From: a virus
Length of the DNA: 23,035 bases
IMG/VR virus record: IMGVR_UViG_3300032895_000391
Coordinates: 1 to 23,035 of that record
Direction: 5' to 3' (one strand)
The number at the start of each line of letters is the position of its first letter. Position 1 is the stretch's first letter. Under the pieces are notes generated by a model. It saw only the letters and a list, made by a program, of their open reading frames with translations. It did no database searches and was not told the DNA's origin. The translations under genes and the position numbers were made by a program. Shown piece by piece: positions 4,677 through 23,035 of the stretch.

Positions 4677-7192
4677 TGGCTCGTTCTAGCAGCGTCGTGG
4701 TGAGCATCAACGCAGAAGATAATACCGGTCGAGCATTTGCCTCCATGAACGAGCAGATTGCGGCGCTGAAGTCGCAAGTGGCCAGCCTGCGTTCGCAGCT
4801 CAGTGGCACCGGTGAGGGATTTGGCGAGTTGGGCGAGCGCATCAAGCGGTCCATTGAATACATGGGCATCTATTTCGGCGCTCACGAGATTGTCGATGGA
4901 CTAAAGGATCTCGTCACAACCTCACTGGAGTTTGGCGAGCAGATAGAGCGCGCGAGCAAGTCGACCGGCCTGGCGATCGGGACGTTATCGACGTTGCACT
5001 ACGCGGCTGCGGTTACAGGCGGCGATTTCGATACGATGACGAAGGCCGTCTCGCGGATGGATCGCACCATCGCGCAGGCGACTCAGGGAAATGTCCAGGC
5101 CTCCGCGTATATAAAAAGCCTCGGACTCGACGCGAAGCAGCTCGCCAGCGACGTCAACGGGCCAGAGGTCGCGTTCCGGCGCCTAGCGCAGCTTCTTGGT
5201 CAAACGAGTAGTCCAGTACGTCGGACGGAGCTTGCCTCGGGTGTCCTCGGTCAGCGGGCCGGCGCCGATCAGATTGCGACTCTCGTAGAGGTCGGAAACC
5301 ATTGGGACGAGTTTACGGAGAAGGCGAAAGCGGCCGGCGTCTATCTTGACAATGCGCAAGCTGAGACCTTGGAGGCCACGAACCAGAGGCTCGAAGATTT
5401 GAAGCAGCGGATACTGGGTGCGAGTCTCGCTTTCACAGAGGGGTTGATTCCCGGCCTCAATCAGATGATGAGCGTGATATCCGGCAGTACGGACGCCAGG
5501 CAGAATCTCGCCGACTGGGGATCGAGGGTCGCGAAAGGAATGGCATTCGCCGCCGAAGCGATATACAGCACGGCGAGCGCGGCTGAGTTTCTATTTGCGG
5601 CCGCGGAGGCTGGTCCGCTCACCGCGATCGGCCGCCGCGACATCCAAGCCGCGAAGGACCTACAAAAGAAGGCGCAGGAGTTCCACGACATCGCTTTCGG
5701 TGGCCCGGCGGCACCGAAGCCGTCGCCTACGATTGACCCTGGCACTGGAAGCGGGCATGGGTATGGTGGCACAGGGGATCTTACGGGCGCCGCTGCCAAG
5801 ATGCGGGCGGCAGAGAATAAGCTGGCGGCGGCGCGTCGCCAGTTGGCTGACGCAAACGACAAGCTCGAGGCGTCCCGACAGAAGGCCGCGAGCGACGAGC
5901 GTCTGGCAGCCCTGGATGATGAGCATAAGCGCGAGTTGATTAGCGATACCGATTTCTATAAGCAGAAAGCTGATGCGCAGCAGAAATCCATCGAGGCGGA
6001 AAAGGCTTCCAACGCGAAGCAGCAGAACGACATTCAGGCGCAGATAAGCCATCTGCAATCGCATAAACTCAGCGGCGCGGAAGCGGTGAGCCGGGATGCC
6101 GAGGTTGCCGAGTTGCAGGCAAAGATTGTCGCGCTCCAAGCCCAAGCGGTGGAACTCGGCGCGAAGGAGGTTATCAACGCTACGCAGCTAAAGACTGAGT
6201 TGGCGGAGGTGGCCAAGCAGAAGCAGCAAGCCACTGATGCGCTCAACGCGGATGCGGAGAGGGCCTACGGAACCGGCGCGTCGGCTCGCATCAAACAAAT
6301 GCACGACGCCTATTATGGCGAGGGCGGAGAGCGTCAGAAGATTGCATTAGAGCGTCCGGGCGACCTGCCTACGGCGGACTCCTTAGAGCAGCACAATGAG
6401 GATCAGATATCAGCAAGCTCCGCAGACGAGATGTATCAGCAGGCGTCGGCGGTGTATGGGGCGAATCGGACAACCGTCGACGATGCGGAGGCGCGCGGGC
6501 AAATCTCGGCGGTCGATGCGCAGCAGCGGAAGATCGCACTCGACCGCGAGGAGGCCGAAGCTCTTCAGCCCGTACTGGAGGCGTATGAAAAGTTGGCGGC
6601 CGATGGGGACAATAATGCGGCAGCCAAGGTAGCAGAGCTTCAGGAGAGGATCTCTGAACTCAAGAGTCCGATCAGCGAGGTTGCTTCCGAAATCCGCACA
6701 CAGCTCAACGACGCGCTGGAGCAGCTCTTCGAGAATCTCGGCAAGGGCAAGGATGCGTGGAAGGACTTCGCGAAGTCGCTGCAATCGATGGCGCTGAAGG
6801 ACACCTACCAGCAGTTTCTTCAGCCACTGGTGCAGACTGCACTTGGGCATGCGGTGCCAAATCAGGGCGGACTGTTCGGCGCACGCGGCGCGGCCGCCAC
6901 AGGCCAAAACCCATCATTGGGAAAGAGCCTACTGGGCGCCATTATGCCAGGCATGGCAGCGAAGCTACCAGCGGCCGCTGGCGCAAAGAGCGGCGGCGGG
7001 GTGACGGTACAGATCATCAACCAGACGAGTTCGCCGGCGCAGGGAACCGCATCGCAGCAATCACCACAGGATGGGAGCGCAATGACGGATATGCTGCGGC
7101 CGCAGGTGATCCAGATTCTTCTTGAAGACTTGGACCGCGGCGGCAGTTTTGCGCAGGCGCTCAGCGGGCTTGGAGGATTGGCGACGGGCTAG
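4676..7192 (+). CDS. Tail tape measure protein
   Basis: An 838-residue protein, the longest in the morphogenesis block, starting within the previous stop codon. The N-terminus has the tape-measure region with SLEFGEQIERASKSTGLAIG at about residues 75-100, the pattern shared by many lambda-H-like proteins. A hydrophobic Ala-rich stretch lies around 288-312 and a long coiled coil around 373-525, rich in Lys, Gln, Ala and Glu heptads. A second helical region lies around 600-690. A C-terminal WKDFAKSLQ motif (W695) is typical of the lambda tail-length domain, before a Gly/Ala-rich end. It sets tail length and is ejected with the DNA. Its TAG stop shares a CTAG palindrome with the stop of the convergent minus-strand gene. 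Confidence 0.9.
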   Translation: MARSSSVVVSINAEDNTGRAFASMNEQIAALKSQVASLRSQLSGTGEGFGELGERIKRSIEYMGIYFGAHEIVDGLKDLVTTSLEFGEQIERASKSTGLAIGTLSTLHYAAAVTGGDFDTMTKAVSRMDRTIAQATQGNVQASAYIKSLGLDAKQLASDVNGPEVAFRRLAQLLGQTSSPVRRTELASGVLGQRAGADQIATLVEVGNHWDEFTEKAKAAGVYLDNAQAETLEATNQRLEDLKQRILGASLAFTEGLIPGLNQMMSVISGSTDARQNLADWGSRVAKGMAFAAEAIYSTASAAEFLFAAAEAGPLTAIGRRDIQAAKDLQKKAQEFHDIAFGGPAAPKPSPTIDPGTGSGHGYGGTGDLTGAAAKMRAAENKLAAARRQLADANDKLEASRQKAASDERLAALDDEHKRELISDTDFYKQKADAQQKSIEAEKASNAKQQNDIQAQISHLQSHKLSGAEAVSRDAEVAELQAKIVALQAQAVELGAKEVINATQLKTELAEVAKQKQQATDALNADAERAYGTGASARIKQMHDAYYGEGGERQKIALERPGDLPTADSLEQHNEDQISASSADEMYQQASAVYGANRTTVDDAEARGQISAVDAQQRKIALDREEAEALQPVLEAYEKLAADGDNNAAAKVAELQERISELKSPISEVASEIRTQLNDALEQLFENLGKGKDAWKDFAKSLQSMALKDTYQQFLQPLVQTALGHAVPNQGGLFGARGAAATGQNPSLGKSLLGAIMPGMAAKLPAAAGAKSGGGVTVQIINQTSSPAQGTASQQSPQDGSAMTDMLRPQVIQILLEDLDRGGSFAQALSGLGGLATG

Positions 7193-10892: not shown

Positions 10893-11284
10893 GTCTTCCC
10901 GCAAAGTACGTTGCCGATTTGATCGGTAAGCCATTTGTCGACGGCGCGCGCGGGCCCGAGGCATACGACTGCTGGGGATTGCTGCAGTGCGTGTTGCGGA
11001 GGATGGGTCACGAGCCGACCGACTATCCCTCGAATCCGGCGCTGCTCCGCTTTGCGCTTCATGACGAGTGGCAGCCGCTCGATCCGCAGGAGGTGAAGCC
11101 CGGCGACGGAATCCTGCTGCGCTCTACTGACTCGCGGTGGGAGTGGCATGTTGGCCTGATTCTCGATAGCTGTCGCATGCTGCACGCGAGGGAGAGCGTG
11201 GGCGTGTGTGTGGAGCGCTTCGACTCGCCCGCTTACCGCCGGCGCATTGTCGGCTTCTACCGCTATCGAGGGCGCCCGGATTGA
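10889..11284 (+). CDS. NlpC/P60 peptidase domain tail protein (lambda K-like)
   Basis: 131 residues, TTG start in a TTGA overlap with the preceding stop. It has the NlpC/P60 cysteine peptidase layout: AYDCWGL with catalytic Cys28, a PGDGILL strand (residues 71-77), and EWHVGLI with His87. His99 in MLHARES is the third polar position. It matches the C-terminal domain of tail protein K, which cleaves peptide stems of peptidoglycan. The N-terminal JAB-like half of lambda K is absent; here it is a stand-alone P60 domain, like many lambda-like relatives. Its stop overlaps the TTG of the next gene. Confidence 0.85.
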   Translation: MSLPAKYVADLIGKPFVDGARGPEAYDCWGLLQCVLRRMGHEPTDYPSNPALLRFALHDEWQPLDPQEVKPGDGILLRSTDSRWEWHVGLILDSCRMLHARESVGVCVERFDSPAYRRRIVGFYRYRGRPD

Positions 11285-14200
11285 TCCTTCTCCATCGCAT
11301 CGACAATCCCTTTCAGCCGCAAATTTCGCGCAAGACGCGCGAGGTGGAGTGGCACGCGGGCATGACGCTCGCCGAGATTCTGCGGGCGGCGGAGGTTCGC
11401 ACTGAGCGATATGCCGCCGTAGTCGATGGTTTTGTTGTCCCGGCCGAGATGCTCGAGGGCTTCACCGTTTCGGATGGTGCGCAGATCGTCGCGATGCCGA
11501 ACGTGGGCGGCGGAAGCTTTGGGAAGATGTTCGCCGAGATTGCTGTGATGGTTGCGGCTGCGGCGATCACAGCCGGCATCGGCGGGATTGGTGTAGCCGC
11601 TGCGGACGGACTCTACTCGACGTTCGGCATCAACATCTCTTACGCCACAATGAACAGTGTCCTCGGGGCAGCAGTTGCCCTTGGCGGCAACATGCTCATC
11701 AACGCGTTCATGGGACCGCACGCCGCGGGCGGACCGGATTCGGCTGCGTTCGATCCGACGGGCCCGAAGACGGTGGCCAGTGGCGGCACGCCGATTCCGA
11801 AGGGATACGGGAGCTTTCTCAGCGGCGGCAACATCATCGCCAGCTACGTCGAGGCGGAGGGTGAAAGTAACTATCTGAACGTGCTGCTCTCGCTGGGGTG
11901 GGGACCGGCGATCAGCGTCTCGGATGTCTCCATCAACGGCAACTCGATTCAGAACTATAACGATGCCACCTACATGGTGCGGTACGGCACCAACAACCAG
12001 ACGCCGATTCCGTACTTCAACAACATCGTCAACGGCTATCCGCAGAACGCGCGAGTCATCGCTGACGGGATTACCGATATCGACGGCACTGTGGGCGCGC
12101 CGGTCGTCATCAATGGAACCGGGACGCAGACACAGGGTTTGCAGGTCGTCATCCAGTTTCCGGATGGAGTCTTCTACTCCAATGACGACGGCTCGCTGCG
12201 GTCCCTCTCGATCGCCTACAAGATCGAGTATGCGATCGAAGGTTCGGGCAACTGGCAGACGCCGATCGTTCCAAATCCGACTGACACGACGGATGTCGTG
12301 CGCTTCAGCGATGACGGGCAGGTCGAGAGCTATCCGGGATGGGTGGTGGTGCCGAATACCGGGCAGTACTCGAGCGGCTGCGTCTATGCCTATGACAACA
12401 ATATGTCGCCTACGGCGCACACACCTGGCGATCCGTGGACTGGGACGCAGACCGTCACCTACTACAACCCGGACGGCTCGAGCTATCAGGGCAGCATCAC
12501 GCTCACCGGCGAGTGGCAGCCGTGCGACCCGAACCTGAATCAGCAAGTCGTCAATAGCTGGTACGGTGGGTGGATCATCTTCTCGGATGCGAATCAGGGA
12601 ACGCTCTATCACCAGACGAACATCTACAATCTGCCGCCAGCCAAGTATGACGTGCGGGTCACGAAGTACGGCTCAGCGTTCTCCGGCGACGCGATTCAGC
12701 CGCGCGAGGCGGACAACAGCCGCACCGGCGATCAGGTATGGATTCACTCGATTGGCGAAGTGCAGTATCAGGACCTCGCCTATCCGAATGAGGTGCTGGT
12801 TGGCATCCGCGCACTGGCCACGGACCAGCTTTCCGGCGCGAACATTCAAATAACGGCGCAGTGCGAATACGGCATTGACACGGCGCTGCCGGCGGAGCTC
12901 GCCAGCTATGAGCTGAGCAACCCGGCGGTTGTGCTGTACGACATGCTCGTGAATTCGATGTATGGCGGCGGCATCGATCCGGACTGCATCGATGTCCCAG
13001 CGTTCGCGGAGTGGGCCGCCTACTGCGATGAGCCGGTTTCCGATGGCTTCGGTGGGACGATTCCGCGCGCCAGCTTCAATGGGGTCTTCGACCAGAACGG
13101 GACTAACCTCTGGAAGCAGGCGCAGAAGGTGGCGTCGCTCGGTTACGCCATGCTGGTGCAGCGTGGGCAGATATACACAATCATCATCGATCAGGCCGTG
13201 ACGGTTCCGGCGCAGATCTTCACTTCGGCGAACGTGCTGAAGGACTCCATCAAGGACACATGGGTCTCGCTGGACGATCGAGCGAATCGGATTGAGGCGA
13301 CGTTTGCGGACGCGGCGCGCACCTATCGCACGGACGAGCCTTGCGCGGTCATGCTGCCGGGCGACATTCAAGCGGGTGTAGAGCAGAAGCCGACCAGACT
13401 GCAGCTTCTCGGATGCACCAACCGTGCGCAGGCGTGGCACTGGTGCTACCGTAAGCTGCTGTCCACGGATACGCTGCTGTTGCAGCGCAGCATCGGCGTG
13501 GGCATTGAGTCTGTGGCTTGCCAGGTGGGCGACGTTATCGGAATTCAGGATGACGTTGCGCAGTGGGCGAATGGCGGGCGGATTCAGGCTGGCTCGACGA
13601 CTACGGCGCTGAATATCGACGTTGACAGCCTCACCTTCGCGGCCGGTGCCGGCTGGACGGTCAGCATCGTGCATCCGCTGGTGACGCGCGGGACTGGGAC
13701 CATCTCGAGCATTACGGGCAATCTGGTGCAGTTCGCGGCCAACATTCCGAGCGGCCGCATCGTCACGATCGAGAATGCTGCCGGCGCTGTCGGCGCGGTG
13801 CAGGCGACGGGAGCGAATACGGTCACCGTCGAGAGTATTGCTGGATTCGGCGTCGGGCAGACCGTCACCTTCTACGACCAGGACGTTATCGACACGCAGC
13901 CCGTCTCGGCCGTGAATGGGACCGTCATCACGCCAGCCGAGCCATTCCTGCAGACGCCCACGGAAGACTGTCCGTGGGTATATGGCCAGAGCGCAGGCGC
14001 GTTTCCGGCCAAGCTGTTTACGGTGACGAACATCAAGCGCAAGGGCGACTTCTCCGTCACGCTGGACACGCTGGAATACGATCCCAGCATCTATTCGGAC
14101 GACACGCCGATCATCGAGGGAACGCTCGGAGTTCCCGATTCGGATGCTGCGGTGTCGAGCCTGACGGCAACCGAGCAGTACGTGATGGCGTCCGCGGCGA

Positions 14201-15525
14201 ATGGCGGCGTCGCCTCGATCATTGCGCTCGGATGGCAGAACGGGCCGAACACTACGGCGGTGCAGTTGTGGGTGAGCAGAAACGAGGCGAATCAGCCGAT
14301 TTCCTCACCTTCCCTTGTGCTTACGGTGACCAAGGGAACGACGGCGACGCTGACCTATCCAACCGGAACAATCCTGACGATTCGCGCGGTTGGGATCGAT
14401 GGGCAGGGAATGGCCGCTCCGTTCGCGTCGGCGCCGACCGTGACGATCACTGTGCAGGGAAGCGGACAGGCGCCGGGCGACGTCACAAGCTTCACTGGGA
14501 ACTATCAGGTTACGCAGACCAACTTCTCGTGGACGGCGCCAAGTGGAGCCTCAACCTATGAGATTCGGTATAACGACGATCCGACGAACACAAACTGGCA
14601 GGCAGCGACGCTGCTGTGGGCTGGCAGCGGGACGACATGGAGCGATTCGACCATCCGCTCCGGCGTCTACCTCATCAAAGCGCTCTCGGCCGCGCCGAAC
14701 GATGTTGAGAGCATCAATGCGGCCAGTTTCTCGCTGCAGTCCAGCACCAGCTATCTGAACGCGCTCGGCCTGGCTCCAAACCAGTCGATCGCGGAGAGCG
14801 TGACGACGAACTCCTACAGCTCTACCAGTGGCTTGTGCACTGTCACGCTCTCGTTTCCGACGCAAACTCTTTCGCGGACAGATACCTCGACGGTAACGCT
14901 CGCGGCGCAGGAGCTCACGTGGACCAATCTCCAGCCGGCGACGACGTACTACATCTATCCGCGACTGCGGCTTTCGGACATGACGATGCACTCCGTGGCG
15001 GGCGATCCGCCGGCGATTCCGGATACGGCCATCAATCTGGCGAACGCGTTGCTGGCGGCCGCTGACGGCTATTACCAGGGCACGCCAATTACGGTCACAA
15101 CGCCAAACACAAGCGACTCTGGCGGCACGGTAGGCGGCTCTGGCGGAGAGCAGGGTATTTGTCCCGATGGCAGAGAGCTCGTCATCGTGAAGGGCCGCGG
15201 CGAGGTGCCGGTGAGCACGGTGGTTGAGGGCGATCAGATCCTCGGCCGAACTGGCGACGCAGATGGGTGGAAGCGGGTCATCGGCGTGCGGCGTGCGATC
15301 GCGCAGTCGTGGTATCTCGTCAACGGGTATCGCATCTCTCCGCACCATCCGGTATGGATCGATGGGAAGTGGCAGCGTCCTTACGAGGTAGGCAGCTTCG
15401 ATCCTGGCGCCGGCGAGCGCGTCAAGGTCACGACGGATGAGACGAGTTACGACGAGCAGAACTATTACCTCGTCGGGCGCGGCGAGCGGCTGCTGATCCA
15501 TAACTACAGAATCGAGGGCTCCTAA
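11281..15525 (+). CDS. Tail tip I/J fusion protein with C-terminal Hint domain
   Basis: 1414 residues, start chosen at TTG 11281 (TTGA overlap, as for the gene before). Residues 1 to about 75 are a beta-grasp tail-I-like domain (TREVEWHAGMTLAEIL). A hydrophobic Ala/Gly segment (about 79-145) follows, as in gpI/gpJ. The J body starts near GGTPIPKGYG with the LNVLLSLGWGP element. Fibronectin-III-like repeats lie near residues 1080-1180. A Gly/Ser linker (about 1278-1293) precedes a Hint domain (1294 to the end). It has Cys1294 in GICPDG, VVEGDQILGR, SPHHPVW (His1356, the block-B histidine) and a final LLIHN (H1407-N1408). It is the tip/host-recognition protein, and the Hint domain suggests self-processing. 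HN is followed by Tyr, not C/S/T, so full splicing is unlikely. Confidence 0.85.
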   Translation: MILLHRIDNPFQPQISRKTREVEWHAGMTLAEILRAAEVRTERYAAVVDGFVVPAEMLEGFTVSDGAQIVAMPNVGGGSFGKMFAEIAVMVAAAAITAGIGGIGVAAADGLYSTFGINISYATMNSVLGAAVALGGNMLINAFMGPHAAGGPDSAAFDPTGPKTVASGGTPIPKGYGSFLSGGNIIASYVEAEGESNYLNVLLSLGWGPAISVSDVSINGNSIQNYNDATYMVRYGTNNQTPIPYFNNIVNGYPQNARVIADGITDIDGTVGAPVVINGTGTQTQGLQVVIQFPDGVFYSNDDGSLRSLSIAYKIEYAIEGSGNWQTPIVPNPTDTTDVVRFSDDGQVESYPGWVVVPNTGQYSSGCVYAYDNNMSPTAHTPGDPWTGTQTVTYYNPDGSSYQGSITLTGEWQPCDPNLNQQVVNSWYGGWIIFSDANQGTLYHQTNIYNLPPAKYDVRVTKYGSAFSGDAIQPREADNSRTGDQVWIHSIGEVQYQDLAYPNEVLVGIRALATDQLSGANIQITAQCEYGIDTALPAELASYELSNPAVVLYDMLVNSMYGGGIDPDCIDVPAFAEWAAYCDEPVSDGFGGTIPRASFNGVFDQNGTNLWKQAQKVASLGYAMLVQRGQIYTIIIDQAVTVPAQIFTSANVLKDSIKDTWVSLDDRANRIEATFADAARTYRTDEPCAVMLPGDIQAGVEQKPTRLQLLGCTNRAQAWHWCYRKLLSTDTLLLQRSIGVGIESVACQVGDVIGIQDDVAQWANGGRIQAGSTTTALNIDVDSLTFAAGAGWTVSIVHPLVTRGTGTISSITGNLVQFAANIPSGRIVTIENAAGAVGAVQATGANTVTVESIAGFGVGQTVTFYDQDVIDTQPVSAVNGTVITPAEPFLQTPTEDCPWVYGQSAGAFPAKLFTVTNIKRKGDFSVTLDTLEYDPSIYSDDTPIIEGTLGVPDSDAAVSSLTATEQYVMASAANGGVASIIALGWQNGPNTTAVQLWVSRNEANQPISSPSLVLTVTKGTTATLTYPTGTILTIRAVGIDGQGMAAPFASAPTVTITVQGSGQAPGDVTSFTGNYQVTQTNFSWTAPSGASTYEIRYNDDPTNTNWQAATLLWAGSGTTWSDSTIRSGVYLIKALSAAPNDVESINAASFSLQSSTSYLNALGLAPNQSIAESVTTNSYSSTSGLCTVTLSFPTQTLSRTDTSTVTLAAQELTWTNLQPATTYYIYPRLRLSDMTMHSVAGDPPAIPDTAINLANALLAAADGYYQGTPITVTTPNTSDSGGTVGGSGGEQGICPDGRELVIVKGRGEVPVSTVVEGDQILGRTGDADGWKRVIGVRRAIAQSWYLVNGYRISPHHPVWIDGKWQRPYEVGSFDPGAGERVKVTTDETSYDEQNYYLVGRGERLLIHNYRIEGS

Positions 15526-15848
15526 TGCATCTGGATCACAAGCGGCGGTGGGTGTTTGGGCCCGTCATCGACGGCATGCCGGTGGCGATGGATTACGCGT
15601 CGAGCGGCGAATGGCCGATGATCGTCGACGGGTACGCCCTTACATTCTGTGTGATGAACGCGCACCAGCTCCGCGCTGCCCGCAAGGATACGCGGCTTAC
15701 GGTTCTGCCGAGCCTACACGCTGGAGTGGCCATTCCGGACAGCCTCGCCGATCATCATGCGCGGTACGGACTCAAGCGAGGGATGAGCCTGCACGACGCG
15801 CTCTGCGCGCTCGCGGTGCATCACCACGCCTTCGAGCCTGAAGATTAG
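15525..15848 (+). CDS. Unrecognised small protein after tail tip gene
   Basis: 107 residues, ATG in a TAATG overlap with the J stop, so translation is coupled to the Hint-bearing protein. It has no signal peptide or membrane span. It is rich in His, with HHA near residues 75-78 and VHHHAFEPED at the end. Hydrophobic strand-like parts are WVFGPVIDGMPVAM and GYALTFCVMN, and the C-terminal half is helical (LADHHARYGL, MSLHDALCAL). No family is recognised. The position next to a Hint domain makes a partner, tail-tip accessory or chaperone possible, but nothing in the sequence shows it. Confidence 0.7.
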   Translation: MHLDHKRRWVFGPVIDGMPVAMDYASSGEWPMIVDGYALTFCVMNAHQLRAARKDTRLTVLPSLHAGVAIPDSLADHHARYGLKRGMSLHDALCALAVHHHAFEPED

Positions 15849-16916: not shown

Positions 16917-19277
16917 ATGCGGACTCGTTTCTCGCGCGCGGCGCTTGCGCTTGCAGCTCTTTTTGCGCTCAGCCTCCCGGCGTTCGCTTCGCATAACGGC
17001 ACCCTCGTGGGGTCGCCGACGTTCTCGACGGGCAAGTTCAGCAACGCCATCGGCGGCCTCGGCGACTCGAATTACGTTTCGCTGCCGAGCGGGACGTTCA
17101 GCTACGGGACCAGCGCCTTCACGATCGAGGCGTGGCTGAAGACGACGGTCAGCGGCTCGACGCAGGTCGCAGTATTCGCCGGCTCGACGTCCACCGAAGT
17201 TCCGGTGGATTGGATGGGGCTACTGTCGAACGGCCACTTCGGTGCTTCCGTTTCGGGCAATAGCGCGCTCTCGAGCGACGGCACGACCTACGACGGCGCG
17301 ACGCTCGACTCGGGCATCACGATCAATGATGGCAACTGGCACCACTGCGCCGTTGTGTACGGGAGCGGGACGCTCAAGGTCTATGTTGACGGCGTCGCCG
17401 GGTCCACCACGCTCACCGGAACGCCCACGGCCCTCACGGCCACGTCGGGGTATATCGGCCGTTTTACGGCAACAGGCTTCTCGTGGGGCGGCTCGATCGA
17501 TGAGGTGGCCGTATTCAACTATGCGAAGTACACGGCCAACTTCACGCCGCCATCTTCGCCCTATGTCGGCGACGAAACCAGCCTCCTCGATCTCTATCAT
17601 CTGGACGGAAACGCGAACGATTCCACCGGAACCTTCAATCCTGGCAGCGCGAGCCTGCCGCAGAGCGACAACTTCGACTCGGACACGACGGGAGCCATCG
17701 CGCCCGGATGGTACGACGTCTCCGGCAACTGGCAGGTGGGCACGGTCGGGCCGGTCAGCGGCAACAGCTTCGGCGATACGGAGGACGTGGACGGCGATGC
17801 CGCGCTGTACAGCAACATGGCCACCGTTGCTGACATGCAGGTGTATGACGAACAGGTTCTCGCCGGCGACGGCCGATTCATTGGCGTGCTGCTGCGCGTG
17901 GACTCCGGCTATGGCAACGGATACCTCGTCACCTATCAGTTCACGAACTCCACGACGCTCAGCCTCACCATCTGGAAGCGCGTCTCCGGGGCCTACACGT
18001 CAATCAATTCGACGAACGTCACGCTCACCGAAACGATCGGAGCGACCTATGCGATCCGCGCGCAGGTTCAAGGATCGACCATCTCCGCGAAGGTGTGGCT
18101 GAAGACGAGCGGGGAGCCGGGAAGCTGGAACGCGACGCAGACAGATACCTCCATCACGGCCGCGGGCTACGCCGGTCTCTACAACAGCGGAACCTATGCG
18201 AAGTCGATCGACAATCTGACCATCTCGGCGCCGTCTGCCTACTCGACGATCGCTCCGAACAATGCGGCCTTCCTCTATTCACCGGGGAACTGGAGCGTGA
18301 ACTCGTCGCAGGCGCTCAGCATCAACGCGGGCGCGTACTTCTCGATTCTTTTCACCGGCTCGACAGTCCAGCTCAACTTCAACGTGAGCAACCTGGGCAG
18401 CCCAGCTTCGGAGATTTACTACCGCATCGACGGCTATAGCGCGGGGACTCCGTTCACCGAGGCGAACGTTGCGGCGACGATCATTCCGACGATGCCGACC
18501 GCAACGTCGGCGCTCCCGTATCACCTGCTCGAAGTGGTCATCAAAAGCACGAGCGAGACCATGAATCGATGGAACTCGCCGAGCGCGACCGCTGTCATCT
18601 TTACCGGACTTTCGATCGCTTCCGGAGCCAGCGTGCTCGCGCCCAACCCTGCACCGGGCGGCACGGTGCTGTTCTTCGGCGACTCGATCACCGAGGGCGT
18701 GCGGACGGTCAATTACACCGCAACCAATGACACTGACCGCAATGACGCGATGATGAGTTGGGCCTACGCGCAGCGCCAGCTTCTCGGCGTCGAGGTTGGT
18801 GTTATTGGCTTCGGGGCAAGCGGCCTGACGGTGACGGGAAGCGGGAACGTGCCGGTGCTCTCGTCCAGCTACAACTACATCATGTCGGGCGTCGCGCGGA
18901 CGCCGCCGAGCAACACGAAGATGATCGTCCTGAACGAAGGAACGAACGACAGCAGCGCGTCGGGATCGTCCGTAACCTCGGCGCTGACTACGGTGCTGAA
19001 CGACTTGCTTTCGGCCTATCCAAATGTGCCGATCGTGGTAATGCGTCCGTTCAATGGGTCGCAGGCTTCAGCTCTACAGGCGGGCATCGCCGCATGCAGC
19101 AACCCATCCCTCGTTCATTGGATGGATACGACCGGCTTCTTCAACACGGCGTATGGCGCGGACAACCTGGACCTGCATCCCTCGGGACCGAACAACCTCG
19201 GCATCATCGCGCCGCTTGTGGCAGGGCAACTATCGCCGATCCTCTATCCCAAGGGACGGAGCTACAGCTTTTTCTAA
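16917..19277 (+). CDS. Exported LamG-lectin / CE2-like SGNH esterase
   Basis: 786 residues starting at the base after the previous stop; GGGAGG lies 9 bases before the ATG. A Sec signal peptide (MRTRFSRAALALAALF...AFA-S) comes first. A LamG/concanavalin-like lectin (about 25-225, with FTIEAWLK, NWHHCAVVY, VYVDG and GSIDEVAVFNYA) follows. A second glucanase-like jelly-roll lies around 240-440. A CE2-type N-terminal jelly-roll around 450-580 is followed by an SGNH hydrolase. Its blocks are GDSIT (Ser590), GFGASG, NEGTND (Asn677) and DLHPSG (Asp752, His754), so the full catalytic set is present. It should remove acetyl (or similar ester) groups from surface or matrix polysaccharide after binding. 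The export signal suggests it leaves the cell on its own. Confidence 0.85.
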   Translation: MRTRFSRAALALAALFALSLPAFASHNGTLVGSPTFSTGKFSNAIGGLGDSNYVSLPSGTFSYGTSAFTIEAWLKTTVSGSTQVAVFAGSTSTEVPVDWMGLLSNGHFGASVSGNSALSSDGTTYDGATLDSGITINDGNWHHCAVVYGSGTLKVYVDGVAGSTTLTGTPTALTATSGYIGRFTATGFSWGGSIDEVAVFNYAKYTANFTPPSSPYVGDETSLLDLYHLDGNANDSTGTFNPGSASLPQSDNFDSDTTGAIAPGWYDVSGNWQVGTVGPVSGNSFGDTEDVDGDAALYSNMATVADMQVYDEQVLAGDGRFIGVLLRVDSGYGNGYLVTYQFTNSTTLSLTIWKRVSGAYTSINSTNVTLTETIGATYAIRAQVQGSTISAKVWLKTSGEPGSWNATQTDTSITAAGYAGLYNSGTYAKSIDNLTISAPSAYSTIAPNNAAFLYSPGNWSVNSSQALSINAGAYFSILFTGSTVQLNFNVSNLGSPASEIYYRIDGYSAGTPFTEANVAATIIPTMPTATSALPYHLLEVVIKSTSETMNRWNSPSATAVIFTGLSIASGASVLAPNPAPGGTVLFFGDSITEGVRTVNYTATNDTDRNDAMMSWAYAQRQLLGVEVGVIGFGASGLTVTGSGNVPVLSSSYNYIMSGVARTPPSNTKMIVLNEGTNDSSASGSSVTSALTTVLNDLLSAYPNVPIVVMRPFNGSQASALQAGIAACSNPSLVHWMDTTGFFNTAYGADNLDLHPSGPNNLGIIAPLVAGQLSPILYPKGRSYSFF

Positions 19278-20279: not shown

Positions 20280-20285
20280 GTGTTC

Positions 20286-21062
20286 ATGGCGAAGCGAACG
20301 CAGCCGGAAACACATCTGCTCCTGCCCGACATGCACTTCCCCGATTACCACAGGGGACTGTGGCGGGCGCTGCTGAATTTTATGGAGCGCAGCCGCGTCG
20401 ACGGCGTGACGTGGATGGGCGACCAGCTCAGCCTGGACGAGATCTCGCACCACAATCAAGACAAGCCCGGCCTCAAGGGCAAGGGTGCGCTGCGCGCGAA
20501 CCTTGACGCCTTCGCGGTGCTGCTGGATGACGTGGATGCGAGGTTGCCGAAGGGGGCCGTGAAGCGCTGGCACTACGGCAACCATGAGCGTTTCGTGCAG
20601 GACCTCTACGATGCGTCGCCTGAGCTCGAGGGGATGGTCGACCTTGAGGAACATCTCGGCCTGGAGCGCCGTGGGTACGAGATCTTCAAGCTTGGCGAGA
20701 TGAGCGAGCTCGGCAACCTCGGCGTCATCCACGGCGATCAGGTAGGAAGTGGAAAGTATGTCGCGAACAAGCTTGTGGAGGCGTACTGCCAATGCATCGT
20801 GATGGGCCACGTCCACACAGCCTCGAGCATCGCGAAGGTAGCGGCCGCGAACGCGCGGCGCAAGTGGATCGGCTGGACATTGCCGACGATGGGGACGGTG
20901 AAGCCGGCGTATGCGCGTAATCGGGTCAACCCACATCTCAACGGCTTCGGCATCGTGGAGCTGATGCGGGACGGGCAGTTCAATATGTACACGATCATCG
21001 CGGACTCTGGGACTGGCAGCTTCAGCTACGGCGGCCAGTTCTACTGCGGCAAGGCGAGGTGA
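20286..21062 (+). CDS. Calcineurin-like metallophosphoesterase
   Basis: 259 codons including the stop, from ATG 20286 (AGG 5 bases upstream; a GTG at 20280 would add two residues). All metal-binding blocks are present: D15-x-H17 (PDMHFP), G45-D46 (MGDQL), GNHE (N99-H100), H149-G-D (IHGDQ) and GHVH (H175, H177). It hydrolyses phosphate esters using two metal ions; the substrate is unknown. Phage members are often near replication or end-processing genes, but no such function can be read from sequence. It is followed at 3 bases by the SprT-like gene. Confidence 0.9.
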   Translation: MAKRTQPETHLLLPDMHFPDYHRGLWRALLNFMERSRVDGVTWMGDQLSLDEISHHNQDKPGLKGKGALRANLDAFAVLLDDVDARLPKGAVKRWHYGNHERFVQDLYDASPELEGMVDLEEHLGLERRGYEIFKLGEMSELGNLGVIHGDQVGSGKYVANKLVEAYCQCIVMGHVHTASSIAKVAAANARRKWIGWTLPTMGTVKPAYARNRVNPHLNGFGIVELMRDGQFNMYTIIADSGTGSFSYGGQFYCGKAR

Positions 21063-21880: not shown

Positions 21881-23035
21881 ATGACACAACAGGATGTGCT
21901 CCCAGATTTTGTACGCACAAAGACCATAGCGAAGAGAAGGAGAATATGGGATATTACTCGTCAACACACGCTGGACCATCGCGATTGTCCGGCATGCGAG
22001 GCGATAAACCAGAGAATTATGAATATCGATCGGGCTATCAGTACCATGTTGTTCCCAGTCGCGGCAGAGCGATGGACTGAATGGAAGCGACCCTACGTGC
22101 TTCCGCGCACCACAGAAGCTCACCTCACCTACATCCAGGCGCTGAACCGCTTTTTCTTCGGTTTGCCGCTCAATGAAATCAAGCCTGGGCATCTGCGCGA
22201 GTATCAGCGTATGCGGCAATCCAATGCCGACAAGCTTTGGAAGCGCGTCGCTGGGCCCAGCGCCATCAACCACGAACTCAATGTGCTTGCGCAGATCCTC
22301 GAATACGCGGGTCTGTGGCAGGCGATCAAACCCTACTATCACCCGATGCGCATGCCGCGCTGGACGCCGCGGCGCGTGATGACGGCGGAGGAAGAGCGGC
22401 GGCTGTTCGAGATAGCGAGCACGCGGCCGGAGTACGAGCTCGCCTATCTCGTCGCCAGCCTCACCAACAACACGACGGCGAGTGGATGCGAACTGCGGCT
22501 GCTGCAGATTGAGCACTTCAATCTGCTCGCCAGTCCGCCAGAGATTCTCATCCCTTCTGATCGAGTGAAGAATAACGATCGCGGCCGACGCATTCCGCTC
22601 AATGCGACGGCGGCGAAGCAGGCAGAACGCATCCTTCGCCGAGCGGCGCGTCTTGGCGCCGTCAACCGTGACCACTATGTCTTTCCGCTGCGCACGAACC
22701 GCGTGAAGCGTGAGGGCAGGGAGGTCATCTACCAGTACGATCCGACGCGCCCCGCGTCGCGCTCCTGGCTGCGCAAGCAGTTCGTGGCGCTGCGCGAGGA
22801 GGCTGGCGTTCCTTGGCTTCGCCCGCATGATCTCCGCCACCAGGCGATCACGCGGCTACTCGAAACCGGCGCACCGGATCAGACCGTCATGGCGGTTGCG
22901 GGACACGTCTCGCGGCGCATGATGAATCACTACTCACACATTCGTATGGACGCGAAGATGGTCGCTCTCAATGCCATCGAGCCGACATACTTTCAGCCCG
23001 CGCAGCCTTTGATGCGACGGGCAATCCCTGCATAA
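21881..23035 (+). CDS. int: Tyrosine recombinase/integrase
   Basis: 384 residues, ending at the last base of the window. The N-terminal part is an arm or core-binding domain (LTYIQALNRFFF, AINHELNVLAQILEYA). The catalytic domain has HDLRH (His316, Arg319), GHVS (His342) and NHYSHI with the nucleophile Tyr351. A plausible beta-hairpin Lys is in DRVKNNDRGRR. The first catalytic Arg is expected in a 'T-x-x-R-x-x-E-L' context; here the region reads TTASGCEL (Ser201 at the Arg place). Integrates and excises the phage by recombining att sites. The overall call is firm; whether the active site is intact is open. Confidence 0.92.
   Translation: MTQQDVLPDFVRTKTIAKRRRIWDITRQHTLDHRDCPACEAINQRIMNIDRAISTMLFPVAAERWTEWKRPYVLPRTTEAHLTYIQALNRFFFGLPLNEIKPGHLREYQRMRQSNADKLWKRVAGPSAINHELNVLAQILEYAGLWQAIKPYYHPMRMPRWTPRRVMTAEEERRLFEIASTRPEYELAYLVASLTNNTTASGCELRLLQIEHFNLLASPPEILIPSDRVKNNDRGRRIPLNATAAKQAERILRRAARLGAVNRDHYVFPLRTNRVKREGREVIYQYDPTRPASRSWLRKQFVALREEAGVPWLRPHDLRHQAITRLLETGAPDQTVMAVAGHVSRRMMNHYSHIRMDAKMVALNAIEPTYFQPAQPLMRRAIPA

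Follow-up and report, generated by a model that had tools for sequence, protein, structure and literature searches.

The tail-tip gene and its surroundings

The window, i.e. the whole 23,035-base stretch of a virus record analysed here, carries a siphophage tail region in which a J-type tail-tip gene is followed by a small gene whose ATG overlaps the J stop codon by one base (Table 1). The longest ORF of J starts from a GTG at 11206 and encodes 1439 aa, while a start from the TTG at 11281 would yield 1414 aa. All residue numbers are counted from the GTG and are 25 higher than those counted from the TTG. The initial annotation had counted from the latter codon, and its Cys1294, His1356 and H1407-N1408 were correctly placed, being C1319, H1381 (in SPHHP) and H1432-N1433 in the present numbering.

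Table 1. Positions of the features of the J gene and of the small gene behind it, given in window coordinates.
Feature	Position	Strand	Basis
J-type tail-tip protein	11206..15525	+	phrog_31 central tail fiber J, E=2e-111; Pfam FNIII-A_GpJ, Phage-tail_3
Module before linker, about residues 1220-1300	14863..15105	+	Alignments; common to eight other tip proteins
Gly/Ser-rich linker, residues 1301-1318	15106..15159	+	Sequence; Gly-rich directly before Cys1 in 9/9
Predicted Hint domain, C1319-S1439 (last 121 residues of J)	15160..15522	+	Pfam Vint, Foldseek PDB matches, family of nine
Putative nucleophile Cys1, C1319	15160..15162	+	Invariant 9/9; only Cys of window domain
Block A Gly-Asp, G1342 D1343	15229..15234	+	Both columns invariant 9/9
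Block B SPHH, S1378-H1381	15337..15348	+	Alignment
C-terminal His-Asn, H1432 N1433	15499..15504	+	Invariant 9/9
Tail YRIEGS after HN	15505..15522	+	Sequence
J stop codon	15523-15525	+	Directly after YRIEGS
Small gene (putative partner), 107 aa	15525..15848	+	Homologue directly behind tip gene in 9/9 cassettes

Towards its N-terminus, J matches the ThiS ubiquitin-like family over residues 44-103 (window 11335-11514) with an E-value of 7.6e-5, so that J seems to combine a ubiquitin-like fold at one end with a Hint (hedgehog/intein-like) domain at the other. Further downstream, positions 16917-19277 encode a protein of 786 residues that combines a laminin-G-like domain with a GDSL lipase domain and is likely a host-surface enzyme of the virion. 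A phosphoesterase (20280-21062) and an integrase (21881-23035) are 39% and 45% identical to those in L003 and L023, respectively, two of the relatives described below; the phages carrying this type of tip end have other genes in common too. The window phage is probably temperate.

Evidence for a Hint fold at the end of J

A match to a Hint profile, one of the checks proposed with the initial annotation, was obtained for the isolated C-terminal domain of J. The Pfam family Vint (PF14623) matched with E-values of 2.3e-4 to 3.8e-4 (about 3e-4), although the score of 21 bits lies below the curated cut-off of 27 bits, and three family members matched Vint independently. The second proposed check concerned the fold. 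Two AlphaFold models of the window domain, built from alignments of two and four sequences, are of medium confidence, with a mean pLDDT of 63.6 for the former and 66.4 for the latter; the ~20-25 residues at the C-terminus of the domain, HN included, are modelled at a pLDDT below 50. When these models were compared with the PDB using Foldseek, Hint structures occupied the first 25 matches for one model and the first 41 for the other, among them Vint 8r2c, the bacterial intein-like (BIL) domain 2lwy, gp41-1, hedgehog 1at0 and many inteins, with a best E-value of only 1.3e-3 (8r2c). The consistency of such Hint-led lists for predicted models is hard to explain otherwise.

In profile comparisons using hhalign, the J domain aligned at E-values of 2.9e-9 and 2.5e-8 with the Vint domain of L005, a clear viral example of this family. 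A four-sequence profile that included L005 matched Vint among the PDB sequences at 1.7e-5, and a profile of the eight-sequence alignment found no Hint chains among these PDB sequences. Because profile, predicted fold and family agree, the assignment of the last 121 residues of J as a Hint domain is supported, and the proposal of the initial annotation is upheld in this respect.

A family of Hint-ended tips with a linked small gene

Eight other phage tip proteins from IMG/VR end in the same Hint domain after a Gly-rich linker, and these domains share 34-43% identity with that of the window. L001 and L003 were recruited with the Hint domain itself as the query. When the upstream module of ~100 residues served as the sole query, eight records were recovered, all of them Hint-ended. 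Six tips were new in this module-only scan (L019, L021, L022, L023, L024 and L025); they had not been selected for a Hint end, and all six possess both the Hint end and the small gene. PHROGs assigns the tip bodies to at least three kinds of tail protein: the lambda-J-like phrog_31 in the window, phrog_5616 in L003, L019, L021, L023 and L024, and phrog_1101/5911 in L001, L022 and L025. L022 has body segments in common with L001 and L025, but both its Hint domain and its small protein most closely resemble those of L003, so that the two genes have probably moved as a unit between the tail tips of different phages.

The small gene measures ~107-123 codons across the family. A profile built without the window copy recovers the window small protein with an E-value of 2.8e-10, and a search of the whole records of the eight relatives found one copy in each. 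The Hint end was absent from 15 other tips examined, fourteen of named phages and that of L007, and no small-gene match was found at these loci. Taken together, nine loci have both and 15 have neither, a count made on related sequences that are not independent. Since the small gene stands behind every Hint-ended tip and is absent beside the 15 tips lacking this end, the two form a tip cassette, which consists of the module, the Gly linker and the Hint domain, followed by a gene of ~110 aa. The initial annotation had overlooked that the Hint domain is one half of this linked pair, the other being the gene at 15525-15848. The identity matrices of the Hint domains and of the small proteins are correlated as well (r=0.81, permutation p=0.002).

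The small proteins possess seven invariant columns (W9, P19, Y24, P31, L39, D55 and L96), and the relatives of the window protein have a WxxSQF-like start and a DAYASxGAT motif in common. None of seven members matched PHROGs, no PDB match was obtained, and Pfam gave no match for the window protein; likewise, no sequence relation to the known tail fibre chaperones of the Tfa/gp38 type was detected by PHROGs or PDB. The gene occupies the position in which fibre chaperones such as V22 gp27 occur, and these chaperones can remain bound as caps (PMC10579305). Its position and co-occurrence suggest that the small protein is a partner of the Hint end.

In tblastn searches of 50,697 phage records, neither the window domain, nor the C-terminal ends of the first three members, nor the L024 cassette gave any match at E-value limits of 1 or 10. 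A search of plasmids returned weak chance matches only, and two scans of genome contigs returned none.

Conserved residues and a candidate self-processing reaction

Conservation was assessed on nine sequences, i.e. the window and its eight relatives, with pairwise identities of 34-59% over 122 columns. Seventeen columns are invariant, and these include Cys1, the block A Gly and Asp, the penultimate His and the final Asn. A simple count puts the chance that 17 randomly drawn columns include all three catalytic residues at about two in a thousand. The window domain ends in LLIHN followed by YRIEGS, and in all nine sequences the tail after HN comprises 5-8 residues, seven of these tails ending in Cys and the other two in Ser. 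The block-B His is found in the window only (H1381 of SPHH), and all eight relatives carry Glu at this position, with SPCE in five and TPCE, SPTE or TQRE in the others. In our judgement, such a uniform Glu looks like a substitution and not like decay. The conservation of the Cys, His and Asn that was anticipated by the initial annotation therefore holds for Cys1 and the HN pair, but not for the block-B His. In L025, block A of the Hint domain (6277-6747) is expanded by insertions of ~30 residues and has no adjacent Gly-Asp pair, but the domain still has Cys1 and HN.

The residue at the +1 position is Y in the window and F, Y, N, Q, L, Y, W and F in the relatives, and Cys, Ser or Thr occurs there in none of the nine. 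As no nucleophile is available at this position, normal splicing is not possible, in agreement with the initial annotation, which considered splicing unlikely. A splicing intein is ruled out by the Tyr at +1 together with the lack of a C-terminal extein, only six residues being left. The initial annotation also drew a likeness to type B BIL domains, which has to be abandoned: the HN ending resembles type A and not type B (PMC4031507). A selfish homing element was also rejected, as a domain of 121 aa has no room for an endonuclease.

The reading that we prefer, with a probability of roughly 0.5, is a self-cleaving Hint domain similar to a type A BIL, residing in a two-gene cassette in which the small protein would be the cognate partner. 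The analysis shows the fold, the conserved Cys1 and HN, the missing +1 nucleophile, the strict linkage of the two genes and their occurrence on three tip backbones; the chemistry, its timing and the role of the partner we infer as follows. Cys1319 would attack the preceding peptide bond to form a thioester, and Asn1433, assisted by His1432, would cyclise, whereby the short tail is cut off. The outcome would be either release of the Hint domain, leaving the Gly-rich linker as the end of the tip, or a tip that briefly bears a C-terminal thioester open to an amine or a thiol. The small protein may hold or time the Hint domain in the manner of a chaperone or cap, or it may be the molecule joined to the tip.

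No residues are common to all class 1 inteins except the Cys/Ser at the N-terminus and the Asn/Gln/Asp at the C-terminus, and splicing persists in several inteins that lack the block-B His (PMC7664689). Type A BIL domains have a C-terminal HN and no +1 nucleophile and mainly cleave; one with Tyr at +1 is known (PMC4031507). Self-cleavage is favoured since the nine sequences retain precisely these essential features. Processing of the J end, as put forward in the initial annotation, is thus plausible on sequence grounds. For the window copy, which also has the block-B His, the balance tips towards some self-cleavage, and we are less sure of it for the eight relatives. Several observations argue against such processing. 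None of the eight relatives has kept the block-B His, which is the main aid to the first step, the active site is a prediction whose C-terminal part is poorly modelled, and if the tail were simply discarded, its almost constant length and its terminal Cys or Ser would be odd. In addition, the lack of a recognisable relative of the small protein counts against its role as a partner.

The strongest competitor, which we judge possible though clearly less probable than self-cleavage, is a retired Hint fold, i.e. an unreactive folded knob of the tip that binds a receptor or docks the small protein. The Glu in place of the block-B His in eight of the nine sequences, the location of the domain where receptor-binding ends are found and a divergence compatible with a surface knob would all fit such a role. 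However, it leaves unexplained why Cys1, the penultimate His and the Asn are invariant among sequences of only 34-59% identity, and Cys1 is the sole Cys of the window domain, so that no intradomain disulfide can account for its retention. If the thioester is formed, it may also lead to a bonded tip instead of release, with Cys1 passing it to the small protein, another virion protein, a cell-surface amine or the Cys/Ser of the tail. The strict pairing with one small gene and the terminal Cys or Ser in all nine tails are compatible with this unlikely outcome, and hedgehog proteins join cholesterol to their N-terminal part via an N-S acyl shift only (PMC7664689). On the other hand, the acceptor and the steps are hypothetical, and the seven invariant columns of the small protein contain no Lys or Cys that would mark an acceptor.

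We consider a wider version equally doubtful, in which the cassette is a mobile two-gene module whose Hint thioester attaches, or is released by, the small partner or a host-surface group, giving covalent chemistry at the site of adsorption; the terminal Cys/Ser would be acceptor-like, and most members would work with Glu instead of the block-B His. A chance resemblance or an unrelated beta domain is very improbable: the Pfam score below the cut-off, the medium confidence of the models and the eight-sequence profile that alone found no Hint chain would point that way, but Hint folds lead the Foldseek lists for two models, hhalign aligns the domain to a bona fide viral Vint, and three members match Vint independently.

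Compared with known systems, the preferred self-cleaving domain shares with the type A BIL of Clostridium thermocellum (2lwy) the Hint fold, Cys1, the C-terminal His-Asn, the lack of a +1 nucleophile and the lack of an endonuclease, and a Magnetospirillum BIL has Tyr at +1 as in the window. It differs from type A BIL domains in its position at the extreme C-terminus of a tail tip, the tail of 5-8 residues in the family, the small downstream gene, the Glu for the block-B His outside the window and a profile nearer to Vint than to BIL. Over blocks A and B, Vint (8r2c from Tetrahymena) ranks first in Pfam, in the PDB profile search and in Foldseek. Vint proteins are VWA fusions of eukaryotes in which only motifs A and B are well conserved and motif F is weak (PMC2362128), whereas the window chain closes with a complete LLIHN. 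The hedgehog Hog domain is similar in that an extracellular protein carries a Hint fold as its C-terminal part, with a Cys nucleophile and no splicing. Hog lacks a C-terminal HN and has a sterol-binding extension, and no sterol-recognition region follows the window Hint domain, as the chain ends six residues past HN. The pairs of tail fibre and downstream chaperone of phage Mu (Tfa) and Alteromonas phage V22 (gp26/gp27) also have a small gene directly behind the gene for the host-binding end, but the window tip differs from them by ending in Hint.

Hint domains as such are well known, and phage enzymes and some other phage proteins are among those that contain them. Within the open-access literature, in which earlier reports may escape a search, no report of a Hint or BIL domain in tail tips was found, and at the tblastn level the tail-tip family with its co-inherited small gene was not found in named phages. 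Phage tips decide which host is infected. If the proposed reading is true, a self-cleaving or bond-forming tip domain that moves with its linked gene between unrelated tips would represent a step of tip maturation or adsorption that is unrecorded in the literature searched, and the family would provide a simple test bed for Hint function without the block-B His.

Two further phage loci carry Hint or intein-like elements in other settings. The 2081-aa ORF of L005 has its Vint-like domain (5833-6243, E=3e-15) at the C-terminus of a large phage protein as well, but it lacks the C-terminal HN and belongs to a different protein family, and the small partner gene had no match in the L005 stretch examined. 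L004, weakly similar, was rejected as a relative of the cassette: at about 5990-6960, its terminase large subunit is interrupted by an intein-like insertion that looks, by its sequence, like an ordinary phage intein.
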